Shown one piece after another: positions 14,887 through 55,218 of a stretch of 64,000 nt of DNA. The notes beneath the pieces are model-generated. The model was not told the origin of the DNA. It ran no database searches and saw only the letters and a list, made by a program, of their open reading frames with translations. Source of the DNA: Nitzschia sp. pyKryTriq1. Taxonomy: Eukaryota > Bacillariophyta > Bacillariophyceae > Bacillariales > Bacillariaceae. Positions within the stretch are counted from its first letter, which is position 1, and each line of letters starts with the position of its first letter. Location: assembly GCA_956465555.1 (NCBI GenBank), contig OY101115.1, positions 1,426,001-1,490,000 on the forward strand. The letters are read 5' to 3'. Made by a program: the position numbers and the translations under genes.

Positions 14887-15781
14887 TGATGAGTGTATTG
14901 TATGCCAAGAGCATCAACTGTAGACTGGTGGGAAGATGATGAGGAAACCTCCACGAGGTTCTTTGGTCTGTCGTCTCGATGAGGAGGAGGAGTCTGTTGA
15001 AGAGAACGAACTGACGACATCGGACGACATCTTCAGCAAACTCTCTGTTGTTGTGGATACTGTAGACTACGATTACTGCACCAGGTATGTCCTTGTACCA
15101 GTACAGGTAGCTCTGCACAGCACGACGTGTTGTGTCGACAAATAATAATTATCGGACATCGGATTGGGCGCTTGGCGCATCATTCATTCATTTTCATCGT
15201 TGATGACGTTTTGTTCAGATTTCTCGTTTTACGCCCCCGCGCGCCCCCCATGATGGGATCTTTTTGCATATATTTCTTGTATCGGTTATTTTTTATAGGT
15301 TATATTATTCGATTTCGTAAAAAGGGCCGCTTTTTCATGGATTAAGTGGGTCGATCGAGTCCAAAGTGTCGTTATTTCATATTTTTAGAGGAAAGTTCTA
15401 ATTGCGTGTGTCCGAATGAAGACGGTGGAACGAGGTGTTACTGGCCGAGCCAGCTGCCACTTTGAACTTTGTCGGTGCGACCGTGTCGTCGTACTCGTCG
15501 AAGAATATCATCATCATCGAATGAAATGTCGTGTTGGTTGCGAACAACAACACAAAACGCACGAAGCGAAAAGCCGAAGACAAACAAAATCATTCGACCC
15601 CTTCCACTTTGGATCGCGGTCGAAAGAGGATACTGCAGAACTTGTAACAAAAGGATCTGATCTACCATACCTATTCTTTCTCCTCCTTTGTTGCTCCTTT
15701 CAACGACGACGATCCGATCGCCCATCTGCTACTGTTCCTACAGCAAATACCCTGGGCGTCTCCTCTGAGTCTGCGCAAAAA
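14887..15781. promoter_or_regulatory. Divergent promoter region, fibrillin/KRE6-like
   Basis: 895 bp between the two start codons. An open frame runs on plus from 15416 into the KRE6-like gene, but the signal peptide at 15782 marks the true start, so 15416-15781 is probably 5' untranslated. No RNA gene seen. Confidence 0.4.
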
Positions 15782-18108
15782 ATGATTACCCATCCGATTT
15801 GCCTCCTATTAGTTGGGCCGTTGGCCTTCCAACTGACGGGGGCGTCCTGGGTGGATCCAGATACACCAGAGTATTTCACGTCCATCAAGCCGATGCATAA
15901 AGGAGACCGGAGAGAATATGAATTGGTACGTACGATCTTGCATAGCCTTTTGACTTGCGTGCTCTTTTCTCTCACACACTCGCCGCCGCGCTCCTTTTTG
16001 TCTTTTAGGTATTCTCCGACGAATTTGAACAAGATGGTAGAACCTTCAATGATGGAAACGACCCTCGGTGGACGGCTCTCAACAAGAACGACTGTACGTC
16101 ATCTGGCCAGCACGAATTCTTGTAGTTTTCTCTGGAATGTATCATACCGGTATTATGTGTACTATTCAAAAGTGCGATGGATTCTCACCATTATTTTTTG
16201 TTCTCCTCCTTTTTTACTTCTTCGACGAGTAGACACCAACGCGGCACTGCATTATTATAGTCATGACAATGCCCATACTAAAAATGGCGTGCTTAACATC
16301 TCGACGATACAAAAGGTCAACAACTACCGGGCGTTCAATGAAAAGACAAAGACATTTTATGCAGATAAGAAATATGTTCAATCGGCGATGATGCAATCAT
16401 GGAATAAATTCTGTTTCACAGGTGGAATCGTCGAGTTCTCGGCAAAGTTGCCCGGGAAGCCTGATGTTGGAGGACTGTGGCCCGCTCGTAAGTTTTTGGT
16501 GGAAAGAAGAACCGAATGAAAAATCAATAATATACATCCACACATTCTCATTGACTTTTGTGGCCACGCGGCGACGACGACGACGACGGCAGTTTGGTTG
16601 CTAGGAAATTTGGCGAGAGCAACGTATGTGGGATCGTCCGACTATATGTGGCCCTACAGTTATAACAAATGCGATCCAAGAAAGCGAATGAGCCAGGAAA
16701 TCAACGCTTGTGACAAGGTCCACCATTATGGTATGCATTCCTTCACGGGCCGTGGGGCTCCCGAAATCGATATCATTGAGGCAATGCAGGGAGATAAACA
16801 GAAACTGCCAAATACGAACATTACGCGTCCCTATCAGTCATGTTCACTACAGGTAGCCCCTGGTGTCGAAAGGGATCGCCCTGAGCTGGGGCTTTTACCG
16901 AAGGAGGTGCGTTTGCGTTTATGTTTGGTTGTGAGCCTTGCGACCGGAAACGTTTTGTTGGCTCACGACGTACTTCTATGTTATAGGGACACTGGTACAC
17001 GGGGATGGAATACAACCATCGCAATGCAACACTTTCAGAACTGAATCCCTTCTTTTATGGAGTGACATTGGTACACACGCCAAAATCATATACATACCAG
17101 GCGGATGCATTGTCAGCCAATATTGGTCTAAACAAGTCGTATTACTCTCAGCAGCAAACTTATCGAGTGGAATGGGATCCACCAGAAGAGGACGGTCAAG
17201 GGGGATACATTCGATGGTATACGAATGGAAATTTTCTTTATAGCATCAAAGGAGAGAACCTGAACATTACGGGGAGTGAAATTCCGAGCGAAGCGATGTA
17301 TTTGATCATGAACACAGCTGTTGCTAGTAGTTGGGGCTTCCCAGCACCCTGTCCGTCGGGATGTACATGCGAATGCTTTGAATGTGGCAACCCTGATTGT
17401 GAGTGCGCGCTTCCGTCTGGTTACTGCGAAAACTTCCCCGCGTCCTTCGAAATCGATTATGTTCGAGTATACCAAGCCAAAAATGAACCAAAACACACTC
17501 TCGGGTGCTCACCTGAAAAGAAACCGACCGAGCTTTTCATCAAGGGGCATGAAAAACGGTACATGGAGGCGGGTGACAAACGTCCTCTGGACCCCGTTCG
17601 TCAAGGTGGGGCATTCTGTACCGCTAATTCGGAATGTGGTGGCGGTGGTGTGCATGGGCATTGCTCGGATCGTGGATTTTGCGTTTGCAGCAAGAACTTC
17701 ACCGGGCCGTCATGTCTGGCCCATGCTGGGTTTTACGATCATCAATCGCACAGCGACACTTCAATTGAGCTTGGATGTAAGTACACAGATGAAAATGTGG
17801 CAATGGATTATGATTTTACCTTTGAAATTCTGGACTAACGCAAAACCTTGATTGTAGGGGCTACCTTTTACATCCCAAGGAGCTTGCTCGTCTTTAGCAT
17901 TCTGATTTCTCTGGGGATGTTCGCATCAATGTACGGTACGATTCGAAACAAAGTACGTCACGGTCGATACAATAAACTCGGTCCCTCACAAGATATGCAA
18001 GTCCAGAAAACACCAACGTCGTATCAAAACTCGGCCGACTACGCTCTTCCACCCAAGCAGAAAGTCGTGACGTATTGTGTCATCGATGGACGTCTTGTCG
18101 ACCAGTAG
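15782..18108 (+). CDS. KRE6/SKN1-type GH16 beta-glucan transglycosylase (6 exons)
   Basis: Exons 15782-15925, 16009-16093, 16233-16487, 16593-16906, 16987-17776 and 17858-18108 join in phase to 612 residues. A signal peptide (HPICLLLVGPLAFQLTGASW) leads into a GH16-fold catalytic domain of the SKN1/KRE6 group: LVFSDEFEQDGRTF, GLWPALWLLGN, and the active-site EIDIIE at residues 219-224 (E219, D221, E224 as the ExDxxE triad). An EGF-like module follows near residues 480-515 (spaced Cys ending CVCSKNFTGPSC). One transmembrane helix is near 536-556, with a cytosolic tail. In yeast the family supports beta-1,6-glucan synthesis; in diatoms homologues are proposed to add beta-1,6 branches to chrysolaminarin. 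The latter is the likely role here, acting in the secretory or vacuolar system. Confidence 0.88.
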
Positions 18109-28106: not shown

Positions 28107-30033
28107 ATGAAGTCCAAGGGAGTGCTATTCGTTGGCCCTTCGTTGGCGGTCGTCTGGGTTGCCAGCGTTGGCACGATGACAACGGCATTTTCATTATCAT
28201 CACGACAGCATCCACCAGGCAATTCCGGCGCAAAGTCATGGAGAAGGAAACATGCCCTGCACAGTTCCCAGAGAGCTGTGGAGTCGTCGACGACACAGGC
28301 AGATTCAGTCATACCCTCGGGCGCGGACTTTGAAGCCTATATTGGGAGCTATTCGTCCTGTACCGAAGAAACGGCTCCTACGATCATCTCGTGTCCCCTG
28401 CCGACCGATTTTCCAGCCGGCACTTACTATCGGAATGGAGGGTGTCGATTCGAAGCCGATGACCGGACTCGGGTGATACACCCCTTTGATGCGGACGGTA
28501 TGATATGTGCTGCCACGTTTGACCCTGATAATCAGAGGATGTTGTTCCGCAACAAATACGTCGAGACAGAGGGCTACATCGAGGACAAGGCGACGGGGAA
28601 AATGTCGAGACGTGGCATTTTTGGGACCATGAAATCGGGAGGTGTCCTTGCCAACATTTTCCGAACGGATTTTAAGAACGTGGCAAACACCAATGTTTTG
28701 TGTGTCGGTGATAAGCTGTATGCTCTCTGGGAAGGCGGCAAGCCATATGTTCTCGACCCGTTGACACTGAAGAACTTGGACGGTCCCGGTGCTGCCGGTG
28801 AAACAGACTTGGACGAACTGCTGAAGGATCGCACAATGAGCGCTCATCCAAGATACGACTCTGTTCGGGATGTATGGGTGACTTTTGGATATACTTTTGA
28901 TCCGCAGACAAGCAGCACCAAAGTCGATTTGTATGAATTGGACAACAAAGGATTCCGATCTACACGTGAGGGGCGGCTTCGGTTTGTCAAAGAAGGGCCT
29001 GGACTTCTTCATGACTTTATCCTTTCGGAGAACTATATAATTTTCAACTTGAACAAGGCTACAGTCTCTCCAGAGGCTGGCTTAAAAGCTATATTGGGGC
29101 TGGGTGCATTTGCTGAATTCATTGCTCTGGACGAAGATGCGACCGAAACCCAATTTGTACTCATTCCTCGATCATTGTTCGATGACATTGACGACGGCTC
29201 CGAAATTGAAATCGATGTCCTGAATGATGAAAGAGTCAAAGTGGTGAACGCTCCGTTCCACGCCAACTTTCATTTCAGCAACTGTTTCGAGGATGAAAAC
29301 GGTCAAGTCGTCTTTGATACGGTCCAAAGCATTCAGCGCGATGTAAGTGCCAGAGAGTATTGAATGCTGCGAGAATTTGTGCATGTGGCAGTTTTGGCTT
29401 ATATTTGTTTTTATCTTTCAGTTGTTACGTCCGCCATCTAAAGCTGGTGTGCCTGTCATTGAAAATGCCGCATTGTGGACTTGGCTCTACCCATCAACCA
29501 TCACGCGATACTCATTGGATCCTGAAAATGAAAGTTTGTCCATCGGCGTATCACCCAAGGTCCTTTCGACCAAACCAGCAGAGTTTCCTACTGTGCCGAG
29601 AGAGTTGTCTTCCAGAAGACATCGATATGTTTACTCTGGTGGTAGTCACAATGATATTCCAGGCAGTACACCGGAGACCCGTGGGTCCGGGCCCCAAACG
29701 GGATCCATCATGAAATTGGATGCGGAGGATCCGACGCAAAATGAACAGTACTGTTTTGAGAATTATGAATTCATTGGTGAGAGCGTGTTTGTGCAGAAAG
29801 TAGGAAAGAATATCACAAAACGAGACCAAGAGGATGCGGGGTATCTCGTATCTCTTCTTACCAATGGACGTGATAAGACAACGGAGTTGGTTATTTTTGA
29901 CGTCGAGGGCAAGGGTACACTAGAAAAAGGACCGGTCGTTCGGGTACCTCTTCCAACGTTTATCCCTCAAGGGCTTCATGGATTCTTTGCCAAGGATCAA
30001 ATTTTTGATTTTGATCCTTTTGAGAAGAAATGA
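28107..30033 (+). CDS. Carotenoid cleavage dioxygenase (RPE65 family), plastid-targeted (2 exons)
   Basis: Exons 28107-29342 and 29422-30033 give 615 residues. A signal peptide ends at TMTTAF/SLSS, an ASAF-like plastid site. The RPE65-family propeller follows: FPAGTYYRNGG, HPFDADGMIC, and the four iron-binding His contexts: SAHPRYD (H247), LLHDFILSE (H302), FHFSNCFE (H389) and QGLHGFF (H598). HRYVYSGG and EFPTVPRE also fit. The enzyme oxidatively cleaves carotenoid double bonds; which carotenoid cannot be told, and the family also contains stilbene cleavers. The single 79-bp intron falls after QRD. It is convergent with the ABC1 kinase gene 221 bp away. Confidence 0.9.
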
Positions 30034-38792: not shown

Positions 38793-39382
38793 GGTACTGC
38801 ACTGGTACTGCACAAGTGGTACTTTTACTGTACCTGGTACCGGTACAGTACATTGCAAGGGTACTTGTACTGTTCTTGTACGTCTACAGTACATACCGTA
38901 CGAATGACACGCGTCAGCGCGACTTGGTTAAGGTGCAATTTCCATTTTTTCGGTGGATTTATTAGCAGTGCCTGCGTTGTGTTGTTGCACGCATTTCGCA
39001 GCTGTGCATGGATTCTTCCCGATTTTCGGAGGATCTTATGTCCGCCACATCCTTAAGCACGAGCAAATGTGGGCAGCACTTGAAGTTCGCCCTTGTTGCG
39101 AAAAGGTTCCACATCTCTTCATTAAATCTAAATCACCGTGTGTGACGTCGAATTGGAATCCAAAGGCTTTTCTGCAAAACGAGCGAACACAAAAATCACG
39201 CCGGAAACGAAAATGCTCTCTTCCCCATCTCCGTCCCCTCACTTCTCTCTATTCCATATTCTACCTCCATTCATATTTTCGAGCCACTTGCGTTGACAAC
39301 TCCCGAAAACTAAATCGGAACACTATTCTCAATCAAGTCGTTGAATCAAGCTAGCAACAATCACAACAGAAGTCCTCTTACA

Positions 39383-41548
39383 ATGAACAAAACACGTATG
39401 CATTCACCTCGCTTGTCTCCCTTTGAGGGAGTACCCAGGAAGCGCGTGAAACTGGAGGCAAGCCTTCTTGCAACGATCGTTTTGAACGAGCGAGGGATCG
39501 CCGCATTTGGGAAAGGAGAATTTGAGGAAGCAGAAAAGTATTTTTCGCAAGCACTATGTAGAGTTGACGTGGGCTTCCTTTGCAACTCGATCCAATTATC
39601 GATCGATACCTACATTACAAGGAATGGTGGGTCCCCTTCTTTACTACTCAGCAGTGGTGCAGAGAAGGAACAGAACGACGAGCATCTGTACAGCATCACA
39701 CCAACGAGTGTAAATGCACGAAGATCGACGCCGAGCAAAGTCATCACCTCTAATCAGCGGCATGAATACGATGAAGGCATGTCAACTTTCGAGCTTCCTC
39801 TTGGTTTGAAGGCTTCTTTGACATCTGAGTTTTGCTCGCGAACTTTGTTTTACAATGTTTCGATCACCCATATCAAAAGAGGGGACTATCGAAGTGCAAA
39901 GACGTGGCTTCAAAGAGCCATGTCTTCGTTCGAAGCCTCTGGCTCGAATGCTGACATGCTGCAGGTTCAGACCCAGTTGGGGATGGGCCTATGCTTCTAC
40001 CGACTGGGGAACAACAACGACGCCATGAAGTACTATACACATGCTTTGGCTTTCTCTCTGCAGATCGAGAAGCATCCGGGAAATGCGGTCCAAGCGGCGG
40101 CTTTGAACTGCCTTGGTGTTCTCTATTTTCATCGTCACATCAATGATGGCGAGAAGGCTTTGAATTTGTTTAAGCAGAGCCTGGACATGTACCGAAAGTG
40201 TTTGGGGAATGATAGCGCAGAAGTTGGGACCGTCTTGAACAATATAGGTCGAGTTCAGTATCTTCTGAGTCACCATGAGCAAGCACTACAAGTTTATGGG
40301 GAATCCCTTGATGTACGGAAGCGAGTCCTCGGGAACGACTCAATTGATGTCGCTGCAACACTCTACAACTTTGGCCAGACCTACCATCAGCTCGGAAACC
40401 TCAAACAAGCTTTGAAGTATTATCATGAGTTCCTAGAGCTCGCCACGAGTAAGCTAGGTGGAGAATCTAGAGATGTGGCAGTGGTTTACAGGTGTATCGG
40501 TGAGATTTACCATGAGCAGGGAGATCTTCAAAAGGCACTTGAAGTCTTTAAAATGGCTCTAGTGGCCGGACGCGCATCACTTGGAAGTGCTCACCCTGAG
40601 ATTGCATCATGCCTGAACAAACTTGGGAACTTGTGTTATGAGATGAAGGACAACGAGTCTGCGCTGACTTTTTACCAAGATGGATTGCAGGTCGAACAGC
40701 GCATCTTTCAGTCCGGCCATCCGCATATTATCATTACACTAACCAACATGGCACACATCTACAAAAATCGTGGTGAGCATAGTCTTGCGCTAAGTGCTTA
40801 TCGACAGGTTCATGGGAAGCAAAAGGCGACCTTTGGGGAATCGAGTATCGAGTGTGCAATGACCTTGTCTAGCATCGGTTTGATGCAGTATCATCTAAAA
40901 TTCTACGAAGAAGCGTTTGAGTCTTACCAAGAGGCTCTCAGAATACGTCGGGACATATATGGCTCTGATGAGCATGTGGACATAGCTTCTACTTTGAATT
41001 CAATCGGCCTGGTACTATTCAAGCAAAATGTTCTCGAAATGTCGAAGCGGTGTTTCACGGAGAGTCTTCGTATTCGGTTGAAGATCCTTGGAAAAGACCA
41101 CCGAGATGTGGCCATTCTTTGGTACAACATTGCGACCATCTACTTTGAAATGGGCCAAGAAGAAGACGCGATCAATCTTTACAAAGAAACCCTTCGAGTT
41201 GAACGTGCTTCGCTTGGCAAGGATCATCCTGATGTCGTCTTGACCCTTCAACATATTGGACAGGTTCTGCAGCAACTGGGAAAGCTCGAAGCAGCTTTGG
41301 GTCATTTCCAAGAAGCTCTGAGCGTGGAAAGACGGCGAAAAAATGGGGATCAAAAGTCCGTTGCAAAGATTCTAAACCTCATTGGTAACATTCATCTGCA
41401 GCGTTGTCACATCCCTGAAATGATGGAATGCTTTATCGAAGCATCACGGATATACGAAGCTCGGCAACCTGGTGATACTCTGGTGATTGCTGGCTACAAC
41501 TTCTATGGGCTCAGCAAGCAACATCCAGAGTGTGCCTCGGTCGCATAA
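39383..41548 (+). CDS. Tetratricopeptide-repeat protein, kinesin-light-chain type
   Basis: The frame begins at 39341, but the Met at 39383 (ACAATGAACAAAA) is a good alternative start, giving 721 residues in one exon. A basic PRKRVKLE near the N-terminus could be a nuclear signal. After one isolated repeat (RGIAAFGKGEFEEAEKYFSQ), about twelve 42-residue TPR units follow from about residue 160. Their pattern is that of kinesin light chain and bacterial TPR_12 arrays (VGTVLNNIGRVQYLLSHHEQ, DVAATLYNFGQTYHQLGNLK, IECAMTLSSIGLMQYHLKFY). There is no enzymatic domain. It is likely a scaffold; diatom genomes hold many such proteins, so a partner cannot be inferred. Confidence 0.82.
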   Translation: MNKTRMHSPRLSPFEGVPRKRVKLEASLLATIVLNERGIAAFGKGEFEEAEKYFSQALCRVDVGFLCNSIQLSIDTYITRNGGSPSLLLSSGAEKEQNDEHLYSITPTSVNARRSTPSKVITSNQRHEYDEGMSTFELPLGLKASLTSEFCSRTLFYNVSITHIKRGDYRSAKTWLQRAMSSFEASGSNADMLQVQTQLGMGLCFYRLGNNNDAMKYYTHALAFSLQIEKHPGNAVQAAALNCLGVLYFHRHINDGEKALNLFKQSLDMYRKCLGNDSAEVGTVLNNIGRVQYLLSHHEQALQVYGESLDVRKRVLGNDSIDVAATLYNFGQTYHQLGNLKQALKYYHEFLELATSKLGGESRDVAVVYRCIGEIYHEQGDLQKALEVFKMALVAGRASLGSAHPEIASCLNKLGNLCYEMKDNESALTFYQDGLQVEQRIFQSGHPHIIITLTNMAHIYKNRGEHSLALSAYRQVHGKQKATFGESSIECAMTLSSIGLMQYHLKFYEEAFESYQEALRIRRDIYGSDEHVDIASTLNSIGLVLFKQNVLEMSKRCFTESLRIRLKILGKDHRDVAILWYNIATIYFEMGQEEDAINLYKETLRVERASLGKDHPDVVLTLQHIGQVLQQLGKLEAALGHFQEALSVERRRKNGDQKSVAKILNLIGNIHLQRCHIPEMMECFIEASRIYEARQPGDTLVIAGYNFYGLSKQHPECASVA

Positions 41549-41676: not shown

Positions 41677-43011
41677 TTAGGCTTCTTTCTCCATCTCGTT
41701 CAACTGTTCCTCTTGCACCATGTCGCGGAGGGATGGATAAAAGGTAGCGACCAAGCCGCTGTCGGCTCCACCCTCCAACAACTTTGAGATACCATGGGTT
41801 GTTGTCTTGCACCTGTGGTCGGTCACTCGATCCTGTGGATAGTTGTATGTCCTAATTCGTTCGCTCCTGTCACCCCCTCCCAAGAGACTGCTCCTGACTG
41901 CCCCTCTTTCACGTGCCTCTTCTTCTCGTTGCGCTTCTCTTACTCGCGCGGCAATCAACTTGAGAGCCTTGTCTTTGTTCTTGTGTTGACTCCGTTCGTC
42001 TTGGATCGATGCCGTAATACCAGTGGGGATGTGTGTTATTCTGACAGCACTATCGGTCGTGTTCACACTCTGGCCTCCAGCACCAGATGATCGCATTGTG
42101 TCAATTTTCAATTCAGACATGGGCAAGAGCTCCCCCAAAGACTTGTCCTGGAGCAAGGGGAGGACGGCTACGGAACAAGCGCTGGTCTGAATTTTGGTAT
42201 CGTTGACAGGTACGCGCTGCACCCGATGGACACCACTTTCATACTTCAAAAGACCAAATGGCCCAATACCGGCTTTGAAGTCTTCCTCGTCGCCGTCGTC
42301 TTCGCTGTCATATACCATTCCAGCACTACCGCCACGGGCACTAATAGAGAGCACGGTTTCTTTGATCCCTCCTAGATCCGTCCTATTCTCTGACATTACG
42401 TCGTGATCCCAACCCATCGACTTGGCAGTTTTCTCGTATGCTTCCCGGAGTTCTGCAGCGAAAAGTGTAGCTTCATCCCCACCTGTTCCCGCTCGAATTT
42501 CGACAATGGCGTCACTGTCAGTGTCGTTCTCGTCCTTGGGCAACAAGGCATCCCGCATCTTCTTTTGCAGCCGAGTATTCCTTGCTTCCAAAAATTCTAG
42601 TTCAGCAGTGCATTCTCGTTGCATATCTTTATCCTCTCCCGCTTCCTGTAGAAGTTCTTTTATGGAATGCTCTTCCTCTTCGAGGGCTCTGATTTTCTCG
42701 TTGAGAGACACCACCTGTGTGAGCGAAGACAGTTCCTTACCGTGTGTGAAGCCATCTTCCGGGGACTGCTCTATCAGCGCTAGTAGCTCTTCGTGACGAG
42801 ACACGATGGTATCCAGCCGACGAGTCAAGGCGGGCGAGAGAAACGTTCTTCGATGAACAGCAACAGCAGCAGTGAAGGTAGTAGGACTTTGCATCGCTCC
42901 TGGCAACCGATGAAGAAGAATCGTCGTCATCGGCATTCTCGTCGGGGTGATGGCTCGTGCTCCCAGCATGGATACCGTTCTTCCAACGATCATGCGATTA
43001 AAGATCGACAT
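41677..43011 (-). CDS. Mitochondrial peptide chain release factor 1 (RF1-type)
   Basis: The frame starts at 43098, but the Met at 43011 opens a mitochondrial presequence (MSIFNRMIVGRTVSMLGARA), giving 444 residues. RF1 domains follow: a helical domain 1 (LTRRLDTIVSRHEELLALIE), then GTGGDEATLFAAEL, KYESGVHRVQRVP and the catalytic RSSGAGGQSVNTTDSAVRI, where the GGQ loop enters the peptidyl transferase centre. The C-terminal stretch RIRTYNYPQDRVTDHR is diagnostic of class I factors. The codon-reading segment after HRVQRVP reads VNDTKIQTSAC where standard RF1 has a P-x-T loop two residues longer. It terminates translation in mitochondria, or possibly the plastid. Convergent with the TPR gene. Confidence 0.9.
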   Translation of the reverse strand: MSIFNRMIVGRTVSMLGARAITPTRMPMTTILLHRLPGAMQSPTTFTAAVAVHRRTFLSPALTRRLDTIVSRHEELLALIEQSPEDGFTHGKELSSLTQVVSLNEKIRALEEEEHSIKELLQEAGEDKDMQRECTAELEFLEARNTRLQKKMRDALLPKDENDTDSDAIVEIRAGTGGDEATLFAAELREAYEKTAKSMGWDHDVMSENRTDLGGIKETVLSISARGGSAGMVYDSEDDGDEEDFKAGIGPFGLLKYESGVHRVQRVPVNDTKIQTSACSVAVLPLLQDKSLGELLPMSELKIDTMRSSGAGGQSVNTTDSAVRITHIPTGITASIQDERSQHKNKDKALKLIAARVREAQREEEARERGAVRSSLLGGGDRSERIRTYNYPQDRVTDHRCKTTTHGISKLLEGGADSGLVATFYPSLRDMVQEEQLNEMEKEA

Positions 43012-43098
43012 CGTCGGCTGTAGCTTCAACGTAAATACGGAGACAGATATGAGTAATGGTTGGGGAAAGCGTTGGCGGCACTGCGTCTGGCTGAACAA

Positions 43099-49526: not shown

Positions 49527-51529
49527 ATGAAGTTCTCCCTTTCTACCTTCATTTGTCCGTTGCTTACCCAATGCATTGGACTCTCGGATGCCAAGGGTTA
49601 CAACAGTGAGGACGTTTTGATCCGAGGCCGTCGCTTGTCGTACAACAGACTATGGGTCTACGAGCCTCTCACTCTCGTTACTGACCACGTGAGTAATTTA
49701 AGTCCTTTCACCGAAGAATCTGGGACCTCCAATTTCTCAAACACTCGTACCCTTCCCTCCTTAGGCGGCCATTGATTTGGATTTGCACGCCATCAAGCAA
49801 CAGATAGCGCTTGGGACGAACACCGGGTACACCCTTGCAGAACGATTGTACAAGGAAGGATCCCACTCCAAGTCCACCGCTGTGATCACCTTGGATGATC
49901 ACCTCGACCGAGATTTGTTCAAAGACACTATAGTCCAAGGTTTTGCTCAAGTTGTGTCGGAAAATCAAGAACCGCAACACGTTCTTGGAAGGCTCCATGC
50001 GGACGCCCGACGCGGGGATACCACCCTTTGGATTACCTATGACATCAATGCCATTCAAGAATCATACGTCGGGTGCCAGGTAGGAGCCAATCCGTCGCCC
50101 AATGTGAACGGCTGCTTCGCTTCCAAGGGAACTGTCAGCTTCCCAGAGCTTGGTGCCAGTCTCGGATACACTTATAACGTGACTGAGGACAATATCTCAG
50201 ACAGAACCATCCAAGGATTTAGCACCAACGCCGAGAAATGGATGGGGACTTGTGAGAAATGCCCCAGGCGAGACTTCCATAAGTTCAGTCGCTTCTATGG
50301 CAAAGGTAAGAGCCATAGCGCATTCTCGAAGACTCCCATCTTAAAATGAATTCACGTGGTAACATTTGTATTCTCGTCTGCTCTCATCCCATGCTTGGAC
50401 TCAGCTGACTATGGAGACGAGATAGTGATGGCAGCCTTGTATGGTCGAAATACAGAGCTCTCGAAGGGGAATATGAACCTCGGAAAGTACAGCGTTAAAG
50501 GACGAGCCGGTATGTTCTCCGTGATGCATAAATGTAACGTGTTGGTCGAGCATGAACATTGACTTATTTCTTTGTTTTCGTTTTCGTTCAGAAATTGCAA
50601 AAAAGGCAATGGCCTTCTTGAATATATGGATGTGGGTCATCCATCAGATGGAACATGCCATTGACATGTGCGAGAGAGACTGCACCGGCTCAAATACCAA
50701 GAAATGCTTAGAATCCCCTGCGGTCCATGAGTGGGATACAAGTGTTGCGTATTACACTGGCTCGCGTATGACCACCGACATAGACGCCGGCAGCATGATG
50801 TTCCACGCTACCGAAAAACGTTGCATTGCTTTCAAGACCTGTGGGGAAAATGGAGATAAGGCAGCTGGCGCTGCTCGGGCCAACCAATTGGTATTCAAGA
50901 ACTTCATGATGGGTCAGAGACAGCTTCGTCATGGAGACTGTAATGGTGCCCGCAAGTCCAAGGAAGTAATCGTTCGTCAAATGACAGTTCCTCTGGTCCA
51001 AGGTACGCTCCAGTATGCTCACAAAGTAGCCCACTCAGAGAACTATGACGAGCAGTTTTCAGCAGACTTTACCGCCTTCGCGTTTTCTGTCATTCCGATT
51101 GTCAATGAATGCAATGAGGAGGACGCAATCGCTATCCATCACGAGCTCAAGGCGAGCACAGATTCCAACGTCGACTTTCGAGCCATCAAGAACGCATTGG
51201 AAAGGAATTATCAGTGCATGAACATTACTTGTGACGATGTGGGTGGTATCTATGATCTTGCGACTGGCCAATACGAGCCAGATGCCAAGCCCTGTAAAGC
51301 ATTCACGCCTCCTTACGATTCTTCAGGCCCGACTAAAGTAACCACCAAGATCGCAGGAATCTCGTTGGCTTCCATTGCCGTCTTCGGTCTTGTGGTCGTG
51401 ACATATGGAAGACTTGTCAAAAAACAAGACGAAGAAGCAGGGGGCAAAGTTCGAATTCCCGAGGAACTCGCAGGAAGCGGCGATTTTGTCGTCGACGAAG
51501 AGAAGGTCGAGAGTTTGACATTCATGTGA
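49527..51529 (+). CDS. FEA1/phytotransferrin-like surface protein B (4 exons)
   Basis: Exons 49527-49688, 49765-50305, 50405-50509 and 50592-51529 give 581 residues. The plan is the same as gene A: signal peptide (STFICPLLTQCIGLSDA), FEA1-like extracellular region (AAIDLDLHAIKQQI, FSRFYGKADYGDEIV, LNIWMWVIHQMEHAIDMC, TSVAYYTGS, EKRCIAFKTCGENG, EVIVRQMTVPLVQGTLQYAH), a transmembrane helix (GISLASIAVFGLVVVTYG) and an acidic tail. The shared GCQVGANPSPNVNGCF confirms paralogy. The intron that splits that motif in gene A (47177-47255) is absent here. Both copies look intact and are quite diverged, so the duplication is not recent. It is convergent with the ViaA-RavA fusion gene, 41 bp between stops. 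Iron binding is inferred from family only. Confidence 0.72.
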
Positions 51530-51570: not shown

Positions 51571-54500
51571 TCATATAGTTTTGTCCAGCTTCTTCTTCGC
51601 TCGTTTCCATCGCCGGAATGTGTCCAAGTCGTATTTTGATTTTGCTTCCTTCATAGTAATAGAGAGATCTGCTTCGGTGAAATCTAATTCACCCGTGTAG
51701 CCGTCCTCCCACAGATCTTGGATGACTTCTATTCTCAGCTCATTTGATGGTGCCTCTGGAAGAGTCGACAGCGAGAATTCCAAGGCACGAGCATCCTCAC
51801 AGGCTTTCTTCAGCTCTACCCACAATGACTGTGCTCTCGGAAGAAGCAACTGTTGTATGGCGCTAGAATCTTCCGGGTCGATCCACAAGAAGTCGTCCGA
51901 TCTTCGTACTAATTCCATGTGTCGAGCAAGACTGTCCAAGTTCTGTTGCAGCAATGTCGAAATGCGGCTGCATTCCACCTTCAACGCATCGATAAGCATC
52001 AAGTCTTCACGTCTGGCCCCAGAATCCCCGGTGACATCGCCAGTAGTCTTGCGCAAAGCAGAGAGGATTTCGTTGCGCAAATTATCGAGAAGAAAACGAA
52101 ACTGTTCCAATGAGGATCCTTGATTACCATTACACGGGGTAAGATTTTCCCACAGCCACTCCCGAATTTGAGTCCTCTGTTCGGGTAAATTCCAAAAGCA
52201 ATGTTGCAGTAATAGGAAATCGATAGGATCCACTTTGGCTCTTCCATCCGAAGCTGCACTGATTTTCAAGAGCCTCGCTGCTTTGACAAGCCTCCTGTCA
52301 CTGATTTCGACACTTTGTTCTTGTCGCATGTATGTTCGTAAATCCCTCATCATCTCACATACGTCATTTTCCATTCTGATAGACTCCGCTGCCACCGAAA
52401 GAGAATTCACTACTTTGTCGAACCCTTCAGCAAAGACAGTTTCGCAATCTGGCTCATCGCCGTTCGTTTGACACGAGGGTTGGCCAGGATTCGACATAGA
52501 TAAAAGAGCCAGAACGCCATCATCTGTGACAGGCAGTACTTCTTTCCGAATGAGAAATCGATCAAAAAGAGCAACAAGGTCGTCATTTTCTGGAAGCTCA
52601 TTTGATGCACCGACAACGCATCTTATCGGGCACGATTCTCGGCCCCCAGCGTTATCGAATTTGCGTTCATTCAGTATTGTGAGTAACGTGTTCAAAATTG
52701 CACTGTTCGCTTTGAAAATCTCGTCAAGGAAGGCTATGTCTGCTGTTGGGAGAAACCCAGCGGTACAGCGGCGATACTCGTCTTTTTCCAAGCTACTGAG
52801 CGACAAGGGCCCAAAAAGTTCTTCGGGTGTCGTGAAACGCGTGAGCAAGCGCTGGAAAAACTTGCCTTCGCATAACTCAGCAAGACGTAATCCGAGAATA
52901 GATTTTCCTGTTCCCGGCGAGCCCAATAAAAGAATATGCTCTTTGGCAACCATTGCAAGGACAACGAGTCGGGCGTCTTCTCCTCTTTCAACGAGCCCGT
53001 CCTCAACACGTTCGACAGCTGCTCGTAGCTGCGAATGCGTCTGCCAGCACGCGGCGTTCTCGGCACGCTCCTGGTCAAGTTCCTCCACAGACCAAGAGTC
53101 GTCAGACACCGCCTGTGCAGCCGACTTTTGTAGTTGCTCAACGGTCTCAGTCACAGCGGCAGAGAAGGGAATATCGGCAGTTATGGTCTGGCTATTCTGG
53201 GCACGATCACTTTCGTCCTCAGACCACCCGCGGGCCGAATCATAGTCGTCGTACCTGTCCATCTCATCACCTTCATCACTACCCCACCTGCCGGCCTTTC
53301 GTCGTTTGCCGCTTCCACCCTCTTCATCGTAGGAGGACCTCTTCGCGTATAGTGCAGTGCCCATTCTTCCTGACCGTGCAAAATTGTGGGTTGGGCCCGA
53401 TGTTGTTACTGGCGAATCATATGCAGACAAAAAATCATGGGTCGTAGTACAAAGCCGAGACAATGGCTTACTTTCTGATTTTCCAATCAGTAGACCGTGG
53501 ACTTGAATCCCTTTTCTCGCTTTCCACATATCCAAGGATTCCATCATTTCATGTGAAACTGGAGGGTCTGGTATTTCACCGTCTGTAACTAGCAAGATAT
53601 CAGCGGAAGACATGAGGTCATCCTCGAGACTTGCTATGGCATATTTCAATGCCCCCGTTACGTCCGTACCACCTCCAAAAGAATGCGAGAGAAATTCGAG
53701 TAGACGTTGGATTCCGTCCTTTGACTTAGCAGTGATAACCCCCTCTTCAATGACGCCCCTTTCCGTTGAAAAAGCAACAACCTGACAATCCCGACCTTGT
53801 TTGTGCGCTGCAGACACACACGATAAAACCACGGCTTTGGAGAGCGACTCTCTTCGTCCTGTCATCGACCATGAGGTATCCAAACATACAATGATCGGCC
53901 CTCCCGGTGCCGAAGGAAGTCGATTCATGTACAGAGGCCTCGTCCGGGGAATACTGGGCACGTCACTCCAACCTGATAGTTGATAGCTGAGCAACTTTGA
54001 TTCCACTTTTTTGGCGAGAAAGAGTCGCCGCAAGGCTTTGGATTCCCCACACAGTAATAGTGCTTCCGATGGAAGCATTTCGGAGAAGCTCCCCGAATGT
54101 GAAATACCTTCTACAGATTCCCGAAGTTGCGGATCGAATTCGGCGCCCAATGCTCCGTCCTTTTGTTGGTTTCTTGGGGCAAACTTTTGGATCCGATCAC
54201 TGTCTTTTGCACTGGGTCGCCGTCCCAAGGATTGTACAAGTTCTTTGAGTTCTGATACGTTGGAAAGTTCCTGCTGCAATTTCGGGATCTCCTTCCAGCC
54301 CGTATGCGACCAAATCCCATCGTGAACCCCAAAACCCATTGTGGCACCACCACCGGAATCTTCAGAGGCATCTTGCGATACTTGAAGCAATCCATGATCG
54401 AAACCAAAAAGACTGTCCAGTATGTTCACGCCATTGAGTACACCAATCCATTCTTCGAGGAGTCCCCTTGCTGTTTCATCGGCTAGGGTGGCTTCGTCGT

Positions 54501-55218
54501 CTACTGACTCGAGTTGCGAGGCCTCAGTAGACTGTGTATCGAAATCATTCTGAAACTGCTTTTGCCACTCGAGAAAGTAGAAATCCTCTTCCTCCTCGAC
54601 TTGACCGTCTCCTAGATTTTCCACGTCTTTCTCTTCTCTCACATTTCTCAGTTGCTTGGAATACTCAATGGTCAGACGCAATAGTGACAAAAGAACGAGA
54701 GTGATAGCTTCCGGATGCCTAAGGGTGAATCGAGGTAGCTGAAGTGCGACCATAGAATCGTAGAGTTTGGAGAATAAAGGTTGCCTTGGCCACCACGCAA
54801 TCCCCCCCGTCGTCGTAGCAGGAAATTCCGACTCTAGCGGCAGCCGTCCCTTGGTCAAGGCGTGCCTCCAAACTCGGATGCCATCAGAGGCTTCCAATAT
54901 GCCTCCCAACAATTCCAACGACGAAGACTCTTTGTCTTCTAGTACACTGTAAATCAGTGGATCAACGGAAAATCCGTCATTCAATGGTGTCAGCCTGTCA
55001 CCCTTGCCAACCAACCGTTCGTCCATAGAGCCAAGCGTGGAACTTGAGACGACTCTTGCCAGTGAAAATGGTCGAGCCCACCCGGAATGTGTAGAGGTAT
55101 GACCGACAAAGGCATGTGCAAGGCTGCACTCGTCCCTGGAAAGGAAGGTACCTACACCCAGAATGGCGACAACCAACCAGGATTGGATCTTTTTGGAACT
55201 ACCTAACGGAGGCCTCAT
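51571..55218 (-). CDS. ViaA-RavA fusion: vWA domain plus MoxR-type AAA+ ATPase, plastid-type presequence
   Basis: A single exon of 1215 residues. The N-terminus has a hydrophobic signal (SWLVVAILGVGTFL) and an AHAF/VGH site resembling the diatom plastid motif. Residues about 150-600 match bacterial ViaA: SFSEMLPSEALLL, ALRRLFLAKKVESKLLSYQL, then a vWA domain with MIDAS residues DTSWS (447-451), T518 in GGGTD and D546 in VTDGE. A charged linker (about 605-700) leads to a RavA-type AAA+ module: GSPGTGKS Walker A (766-773), LDEIFKANSAILNTLL Walker B (from 831), GASNELPENDDLVALFDRFL sensor region and EISDRRLVKAARLL lid. In bacteria RavA and ViaA are separate operon-encoded partners linked to Fe-S and respiratory complexes. 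Here they are one chain, ViaA first. Mg-chelatase and CbbX-type proteins fit less well. Confidence 0.88.
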   Translation of the reverse strand: MRPPLGSSKKIQSWLVVAILGVGTFLSRDECSLAHAFVGHTSTHSGWARPFSLARVVSSSTLGSMDERLVGKGDRLTPLNDGFSVDPLIYSVLEDKESSSLELLGGILEASDGIRVWRHALTKGRLPLESEFPATTTGGIAWWPRQPLFSKLYDSMVALQLPRFTLRHPEAITLVLLSLLRLTIEYSKQLRNVREEKDVENLGDGQVEEEEDFYFLEWQKQFQNDFDTQSTEASQLESVDDEATLADETARGLLEEWIGVLNGVNILDSLFGFDHGLLQVSQDASEDSGGGATMGFGVHDGIWSHTGWKEIPKLQQELSNVSELKELVQSLGRRPSAKDSDRIQKFAPRNQQKDGALGAEFDPQLRESVEGISHSGSFSEMLPSEALLLCGESKALRRLFLAKKVESKLLSYQLSGWSDVPSIPRTRPLYMNRLPSAPGGPIIVCLDTSWSMTGRRESLSKAVVLSCVSAAHKQGRDCQVVAFSTERGVIEEGVITAKSKDGIQRLLEFLSHSFGGGTDVTGALKYAIASLEDDLMSSADILLVTDGEIPDPPVSHEMMESLDMWKARKGIQVHGLLIGKSESKPLSRLCTTTHDFLSAYDSPVTTSGPTHNFARSGRMGTALYAKRSSYDEEGGSGKRRKAGRWGSDEGDEMDRYDDYDSARGWSEDESDRAQNSQTITADIPFSAAVTETVEQLQKSAAQAVSDDSWSVEELDQERAENAACWQTHSQLRAAVERVEDGLVERGEDARLVVLAMVAKEHILLLGSPGTGKSILGLRLAELCEGKFFQRLLTRFTTPEELFGPLSLSSLEKDEYRRCTAGFLPTADIAFLDEIFKANSAILNTLLTILNERKFDNAGGRESCPIRCVVGASNELPENDDLVALFDRFLIRKEVLPVTDDGVLALLSMSNPGQPSCQTNGDEPDCETVFAEGFDKVVNSLSVAAESIRMENDVCEMMRDLRTYMRQEQSVEISDRRLVKAARLLKISAASDGRAKVDPIDFLLLQHCFWNLPEQRTQIREWLWENLTPCNGNQGSSLEQFRFLLDNLRNEILSALRKTTGDVTGDSGARREDLMLIDALKVECSRISTLLQQNLDSLARHMELVRRSDDFLWIDPEDSSAIQQLLLPRAQSLWVELKKACEDARALEFSLSTLPEAPSNELRIEVIQDLWEDGYTGELDFTEADLSITMKEAKSKYDLDTFRRWKRAKKKLDKTI

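Follow-up and report, generated by a model that had tools for sequence, protein, structure and literature searches.

The MoxR-type AAA+ ATPase RavA and its von Willebrand factor A (vWA) partner ViaA form a chaperone known from bacteria, where it acts in respiration and stress. In Escherichia coli both are reported to bind Nuo subunits, with ViaA mediating, and to have genetic links to iron-sulphur (Fe-S) genes (PMC3893208). For NorQ-NorD, one NorD is reported on a NorQ hexamer (1:6), with a vWA finger modelled in the pore and the metal ion-dependent adhesion site (MIDAS) towards the client, and the authors of that report propose that RavA/ViaA may use a finger in the same way (PMC9976466). Here we describe a gene of the diatom Nitzschia sp. 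pyKryTriq1 in which the two families are joined in one chain, ViaA first and RavA second, behind what appears to be a plastid presequence. It lies at 51571..55218 of a 64,000-nucleotide stretch (the window; contig OY101115.1 of assembly GCA_956465555.1, positions 1,426,001 to 1,490,000), and its relatives suggest a conserved plastid system of ochrophytes.

Architecture of the chain and its linker

The minus strand is open from an ATG at 55218 to 51571, giving 1215 codons without a stop, and the gene has one match in the 40.65 Mb assembly; a plus-strand reading of 51571-55218 is ruled out, with stops throughout. The NCBIfam hidden Markov models (HMMs) for RavA and ViaA match at 4e-63 and 4e-33 respectively, and full-length fusions with up to 68% identity to the window protein are present in other algae, so the fusion is not a chance one. 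The features are listed here with positions in the window and residue numbers of the chain.

51571..55218 (-): whole gene, single-frame precursor of 1215 residues plus stop
55111..55218 (-): signal peptide, residues 1-36, AHA then F37 (ASAFAP-type site), from the sequence and the reported consensus (PMC4329603/PMC3774753)
55030..55110 (-): predicted N-terminal transit peptide, residues 37-63, S-T-L-G before S64, from the diatom consensus
53431..54912 (-): ViaA part, residues 103-596, helical N-terminal domain and vWA (hhalign, NCBIfam ViaA)
53431..53898 (-): vWA domain, residues 441-596 (Pfam VWA_2, VWA_CoxE, VWA)
53866..53880 (-): MIDAS motif DTSWS, residues 447-451 (sequence, alignment)
53662-53676 (-): MIDAS part GGGTD, residues 515-519 (sequence, alignment)
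53575-53589 (-): MIDAS part VTDGE, residues 544-548 (sequence, alignment)
53347..53415 (-): transit-peptide-like stretch in the linker, residues 602-624, ending G-T-A-L-Y
53341..53352 (-): proposed stromal cleavage site, L623-Y624 / A625-K626, a consensus match at which cutting would occur
53176..53409 (-): disordered linker, residues 604-681 (AlphaFold2 predicted local distance difference test under 50)
52117..53043 (-): RavA AAA+ module with lid, residues 726-1034 (hhalign; Pfam bpMoxR, AAA_5, AAA_lid_8)
52900..52923 (-): Walker A GSPGTGKS, residues 766-773 (sequence, alignment)
52720..52734 (-): Walker B AFLDE, residues 829-833 (sequence, alignment)
52291..52302 (-): sensor-2 motif SDRR, residues 973-976 (sequence, alignment)
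51574..52116 (-): C-terminal helical part, residues 1035-1215 (Pfam, AlphaFold2, structure comparison)

The sequence-only reading had described a ViaA-like region with intact MIDAS, a RavA-like module with Walker A, Walker B and sensor regions, and a hydrophobic signal plus AHAF site, all in one plastid-addressed protein. Each of these elements is present, with the three MIDAS motifs spanning residues 447-548, sensor-1 as ASNELP at residues 871-876 and the arginine finger within DRF 886-888. Residues D447, S449, S451, T518, D546, K772, D832, E833, N873, R887, R975 and R976 are invariant in a 19-row fusion alignment, made from the window protein and 18 hand-picked members of 120 listed relatives, and presumably serve the MIDAS, Walker, sensor and arginine finger functions. 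The relatives come from a first protein search that returned 203 among 7993 scored candidates of similar length, with details for 120 of the 203; later counts draw on 138 proteins overall. In the predicted structure the first part of residues 1035-1215 superposes on the C-terminal helices of E. coli RavA; no vWA chain is among the matches listed by the structure comparison, a list filled by the AAA part.

The linker between the vWA domain and the AAA module is 71-204 residues long among the fusions, poorly alignable, and largely disordered in the AlphaFold2 model of the window protein. In the latter it contains an acid-poor basic stretch that ends G-T-A-L-Y and is followed by A-K-R-S-S-Y-D-E-E. 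N-terminomics of Thalassiosira pseudonana is reported to give a stromal consensus with Ala or Ser at -3 and Leu at -2, followed by Ala, Ser or a Met lost in a later step, and diatom transit peptides are described there as 12-42 residues long and almost free of acids, with hydroxylated residues before the cut and negative charge after it (PMC3774753). We examined a linker alignment of 57 rows (the window protein and 56 hand-picked from the other 137). The strict cleavage pattern is present in 35 of the 57 linkers, where shuffled sequences lead one to expect 3.05, and its density in the linkers is about 13 times that in the rest of these proteins; one aligned column accounts for 28 of the 35 strict sites. 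At that column Leu is found at P2 in 51 of 57 rows and Ala at P1' in 45, with Ser in five, Gly in three and Met in two, which makes the Leu column the most conserved of the stretch examined and the Ala column one of two that share second place. The 20 residues before the site have a mean charge of +3.25 with 1.6% Asp and 2.0% Glu, and a charge of at least +2 together with no more than one acid is seen in 79% of rows, versus 12% of random 20-mers. The assembly has 57 matches to the light-harvesting complex (LHC) family PF00504, which marks the host as a photosynthetic alga, and LHC proteins of this genome carry the signature in 7 of 15 readable N termini (from 30 loci; 0.46 in shuffled sequences), a set in which at least four of the 15 have plainly wrong starts.

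Several observations weigh against a cut at this site. The strict pattern is missing from 22 of the 57 linkers, several of them through an Ile, Val or acid near the site, and in the second of the two fusion clades (see below) two of seven strict sites are at the aligned column. A relaxed pattern gives a weaker contrast (56 of 82, versus 14.5 shuffled), and the acid-free run is unusual (p under 0.01) in 25 of the 57 linkers, with p 0.02 in the window protein. Ser and Thr make up 12.9% and 6.5% of the residues before the site, less than the 18% and 14% given for transit peptides of diatoms. The position that follows +1 is in most rows Lys or Arg, where the consensus expects negative charge, and acids come a few residues later. 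The 57 proteins are related and hence not independent, and MAFFT may itself have aligned the Leu and Ala columns. We take the fusion chain to be, most likely, a precursor from which cleavage in the stroma would release ViaA and RavA. One further entry, P0120, is a RavA-only protein of 721 residues with 54% identity to the RavA half of the window protein; it has a signal-like start of its own and later S-A-L-S then A, as if RavA had its own presequence, and may represent a split gene.

We lean slightly towards a plastid RavA-ViaA machine of ochrophytes made from a single nuclear-encoded precursor in which ViaA precedes RavA. The signal and transit peptides would very probably carry the chain into the plastid stroma, where the stromal processing peptidase may, on a narrow balance, cut after residue 63 and near Y624/A625 to give ViaA (64-624) and RavA (625-1215) in equal numbers. 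A RavA hexamer would then probably carry one ViaA vWA on its ring as an adaptor, as modelled for NorQ-NorD, and ATP hydrolysis, acting through the vWA MIDAS surface, would rather likely remodel plastid clients during assembly or cofactor insertion. By analogy, thylakoid or other redox complexes would be the first client candidates, and Fe-S insertion a conceivable plastid function.

The sequence-only reading held that a covalent 1:1 link would fix the stoichiometry of the machine, and this now seems doubtful, given a linker with a stromal-cleavage-like site and the reported NorD:NorQ ratio of 1:6 (PMC9976466). A permanent 1:1 chain would place six ViaA on each hexamer, above the need of a NorD-like mode, and stromal cleavage would relieve this. 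A chain that stays in one piece is the less likely alternative: six tethered ViaA would sit on the RavA hexamer with one engaged, and the linker motif would be a docking motif or a relic transit peptide, the latter from a former separate RavA gene. AAA+/vWA single chains do exist in ChlD and midasin/Rea1, which stay whole. The algal linker is long and flexible, and two-protein plastid fusions are reported in Euglena for which cutting is left open (PMC6242988). A relic would be expected to fade, and yet the site recurs in both clades in a linker that hardly aligns; the reported one-to-six ratio of NorD to NorQ and the reported E. coli numbers of about 350 RavA and 90 ViaA also argue against permanently tethered partners.

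Predicted plastid address and family identity

Plastid addressing of the fusion is well supported by its N termini. Among 64 complete-looking N termini taken from the 138 proteins, 53 have a hydrophobic core and then A, G, S or C followed by F, as do 16% of shuffled N termini, in a test that is loose in that the F falls within the hydrophobic core in a few rows. For diatoms, an F at +1 after the signal peptide is described as the plastid marker (PMC4329603, PMC3774753), and the window protein has this arrangement of a diatom stroma-processed precursor. The following segment, F37-G63, contains no acids and runs up to S-T-L-G, with S-M-D-E next, which resembles the end described for transit peptides. 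A signal peptide alone leads to the endoplasmic reticulum and the localisation is a prediction, so the chain might instead be held back in the secretory system or the periplastid space. The F at +1 in 53 of 64 N termini makes such a location quite unlikely, and a Chlamydomonas chloroplast 'moxR ATPase', a possible orthologue, is reported on plastid ribosomes. The association of this protein (Cre13.g603225) with plastid ribosomes is said to change after 180 min of heat, and it clusters with chaperonins (PMC8894945); as a green-algal RavA partner it is a lead only.

Both halves of the chain belong to the families proposed for them, on the agreement of HMM and hhalign comparison, with structure comparison for the RavA half. 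The ViaA half aligns with bacterial ViaA by hhalign at an E value of 1.5e-72 over 440 columns (residues 103-596 against 35-507 of the ViaA of a Phycisphaerales locus, L039), and the RavA half with a RavA profile at 1.9e-98 over 294 columns. The chain has a MoxR AAA+ core with the RavA-type lid (AAA_lid_8), a C-terminal vWA with MIDAS within the ViaA half and an N-terminal ViaA domain before it, and the ViaA partner lies in the same chain as RavA. The RavA and ViaA models match all 19 fusion members (best ViaA value 9.7e-38). A ChlD/BchD identity, which the sequence-only reading named as an outcome that would tell against ViaA, is rejected: these models match two of the 19, at best 2.9e-5. Models of other MoxR/vWA pairs match five members or fewer each, at best 9.1e-07.

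The bit scores of 214 for RavA and 115.5 for ViaA fall short of the NCBIfam equivalog cut-offs (681 and 500 bits), and LARA (PF20265) and RavA_C (PF12592) were not detected in the window protein at E values up to 1. LARA is the LdcI-binding domain of E. coli RavA. Both domains are found in E. coli RavA and neither is listed for the L039 RavA, so they are not universal among bacterial RavA proteins. With LARA and RavA_C absent at that threshold and the strict cut-offs missed, the fusion is, by sequence comparison, homologous to RavA and ViaA and yet not a pair of E. coli equivalogs. The missed cut-offs, together with a top Pfam match that carries the name bpMoxR, could be taken to mean that a different MoxR/vWA family is fused here (ChlI/ChlD, the bpMoxR ternary system, CoxD/E or NorQ/D). 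We consider this highly improbable, as bpMoxR is the best Pfam match of E. coli RavA too, no other model approaches the 19 of 19 for RavA and ViaA, and the ViaA homology takes in the N-terminal domain in addition to the vWA. E. coli ViaA is reported to have a lipid-binding C-terminal helix with arginines R476 and R479 (PMC9489729), the counterpart of which would sit near the start of the linker.

Distribution, gene order and origin

Named fusion relatives among those listed are in Pseudo-nitzschia, Nitzschia, Cylindrotheca, Epithemia, Chaetoceros, Seminavis and Thalassiosira, and both halves are present in one protein in transcriptome-type entries (P0018, P0061 and P0075). We note that one fusion, in Nitzschia inconspicua (P0011), is filed as a phospholipid-translocating ATPase and is apparently misnamed. 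A search from three distant members returned 40 proteins, including further fusions, and one with the ViaA half (270-859 residues) returned 373, of which 120 were listed. No RavA domain is present in 17 green-algal ViaA entries among these (328-747 residues), where the length limit of the search would hide longer fusions. These are from Ostreobium, Nannochloris, Coccomyxa, Myrmecia, Trebouxia, Bryopsis, two Chlorella, Raphidocelis, Tetradesmus, Scenedesmus, Sanguina, two Chlamydomonas and Pyramimonas, with two further codes that we take to stand for Asterochloris and Botryococcus. The fusion is present across diatoms and in a second algal clade, and the listed green entries carry ViaA without RavA.

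Trees were built from hand-picked sets of 48, 45 and 55 rows. In the quick trees all 20 eukaryotic rows group together (support 98 for RavA and 96 for ViaA); seven of these are outside the 19-row alignment and come from the distant-member search or the first-search list. Eleven diatom-type rows form one group (99 and 100) and eight distant rows another (80 and 89), with P0116 left unplaced; the careful ViaA tree puts it among the distant rows (97/90). In the 55-row ViaA tree, for which no root was inferred, 37 eukaryotic rows are apart from 18 bacterial ones (100/100); 17 ochrophyte rows form one clade among them (100/99) and 20 green rows another (96/86). The second fusion clade comprises P0114, P0116, P0119, P0122-P0126 and P0128, together with P0127, which is counted here because it is 60% identical to P0126, and we infer from the trees that these are non-diatom ochrophytes. 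A ViaA fragment filed under a Promethearchaeia metagenome-assembled genome (P0134), with 50% identity to the algal ViaA half, is probably eukaryotic contamination.

Six ViaA-only entries (P0111, P0112, P0115, P0118, P0121 and P0135) align into the linker and then have unrelated ends, which look like reading into an intron; P0112 could be another transcript. Single-half entries such as P0112 (Pseudo-nitzschia australis) and P0120 might suggest a gene-model artefact in which two adjacent genes were taken as one frame, a reading made extremely improbable by 1215 codons without a stop, by halves joined in many species and in transcriptome-type entries, and by the intron-like ends of the six.

We fetched 80 bacterial and archaeal loci and scanned them with patterns derived from the vWA only; 78 have a match and 70 have both genes. 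RavA and ViaA are separate genes in all 70, as the sequence-only reading had it, with ravA before viaA in every case. In 68 of the 70 the two frames overlap or are within 50 bases, the exceptions being L028, with apparently broken frames, and L081, with weak scores. The order in E. coli is likewise ravA then viaA, with a 7-base overlap. The algal order is inverted relative to this operon, and therefore the fusion cannot have arisen from such an operon by loss of a stop codon. No fused frame, and thus no fused bacterial ancestor, is found among the 70 loci, a sample drawn from RavA genes that have such a ViaA. One informative arrangement is a tandem ravA-viaA-ravA-viaA in a metagenome contig labelled uncultured proteobacterium (L002:3000-9629), whose middle junction is in the algal fusion order; it shows how a viaA-ravA junction can arise, and that the algal gene took this route is speculation. 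As to a possible cyanobacterial origin, a ViaA match is absent from Synechococcus elongatus, the sole nameable cyanobacterium among the controls, and no cyanobacterium was seen among the titles of the 80 loci. We tentatively propose that the gene may be an 'operon substitute', common to diatoms and a second, deeply separate algal clade, in which a two-gene system would have become a reversed precursor with a second transit peptide kept or re-made, and the stromal peptidase would free both subunits of the AAA+ machine.

Neighbouring genes and comparison with known systems

Downstream of the fusion gene, and convergent with it, is a 325-residue frame at 50552-51529 (+) that ends 41 bases from the fusion stop codon; it has a weak match to Fea1, a low-iron-inducible protein (2e-5, just under the Pfam cut-off), and no relative was found for it in the PDB. 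Elsewhere in the window there are two SKN1/KRE6 beta-glucan synthesis frames at 15416-17838 (+), likely exons of one gene, an RPE65-type carotenoid oxygenase frame at 28107-29363 (+; 5e-59), a frame with many TPR_12-type tetratricopeptide repeats at 39341-41548 (+), and, at 41677-43098 (-), a possibly organellar peptide chain release factor in which both PCRF and RF-1 domains are recognised. Elsewhere in the assembly (G000:C3:1940953-1943345) there is an inverted pair of LHC-family matches with identical scores, about 1.2 kb apart and with stops inside each.

No description of a fused plastid RavA-ViaA was found in the open-licence PMC literature, although the database names 'ATPase RavA' (Seminavis) and 'viaA' (Scenedesmus) are already present. 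The reversed precursor opens two questions to tests in a transformable diatom: the identity of the plastid complexes that depend on a MoxR/vWA chaperone, and the possibility that the stromal processing peptidase frees subunits by internal cuts. The E. coli ravA-viaA operon has separate genes, ravA then viaA, whereas the algal gene encodes one chain with ViaA then RavA, a plastid presequence and a long linker, in which the E. coli domains LARA and RavA_C were not detected. Green algae hold a ViaA of their own; that of Scenedesmus, Chlorella and Chlamydomonas eustigma groups with the ochrophyte ViaA half (100/100) apart from the 18 bacterial rows, and differs in the lack of a RavA domain in the 17 entries recovered within the length limit given above. 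NorQ/NorD and CbbQ/CbbO are likewise described as a MoxR AAA+ hexamer with a vWA partner, with a mode of action that is likely to be shared, but are of other families and separate proteins. ChlD and midasin (Rea1/MDN1) have AAA+ and vWA in one chain, and differ in family and arrangement; we know of no linker with a transit-peptide-like site in either. In Euglena, plastid polyproteins and two-protein fusions are reported to place several plastid proteins behind one presequence, with the RBCS units of E. gracilis cut after import (PMC6242988). These cases are in another lineage, concern other proteins joined by decapeptides or short linkers, and are not a reversed former operon pair as in the algal fusion.

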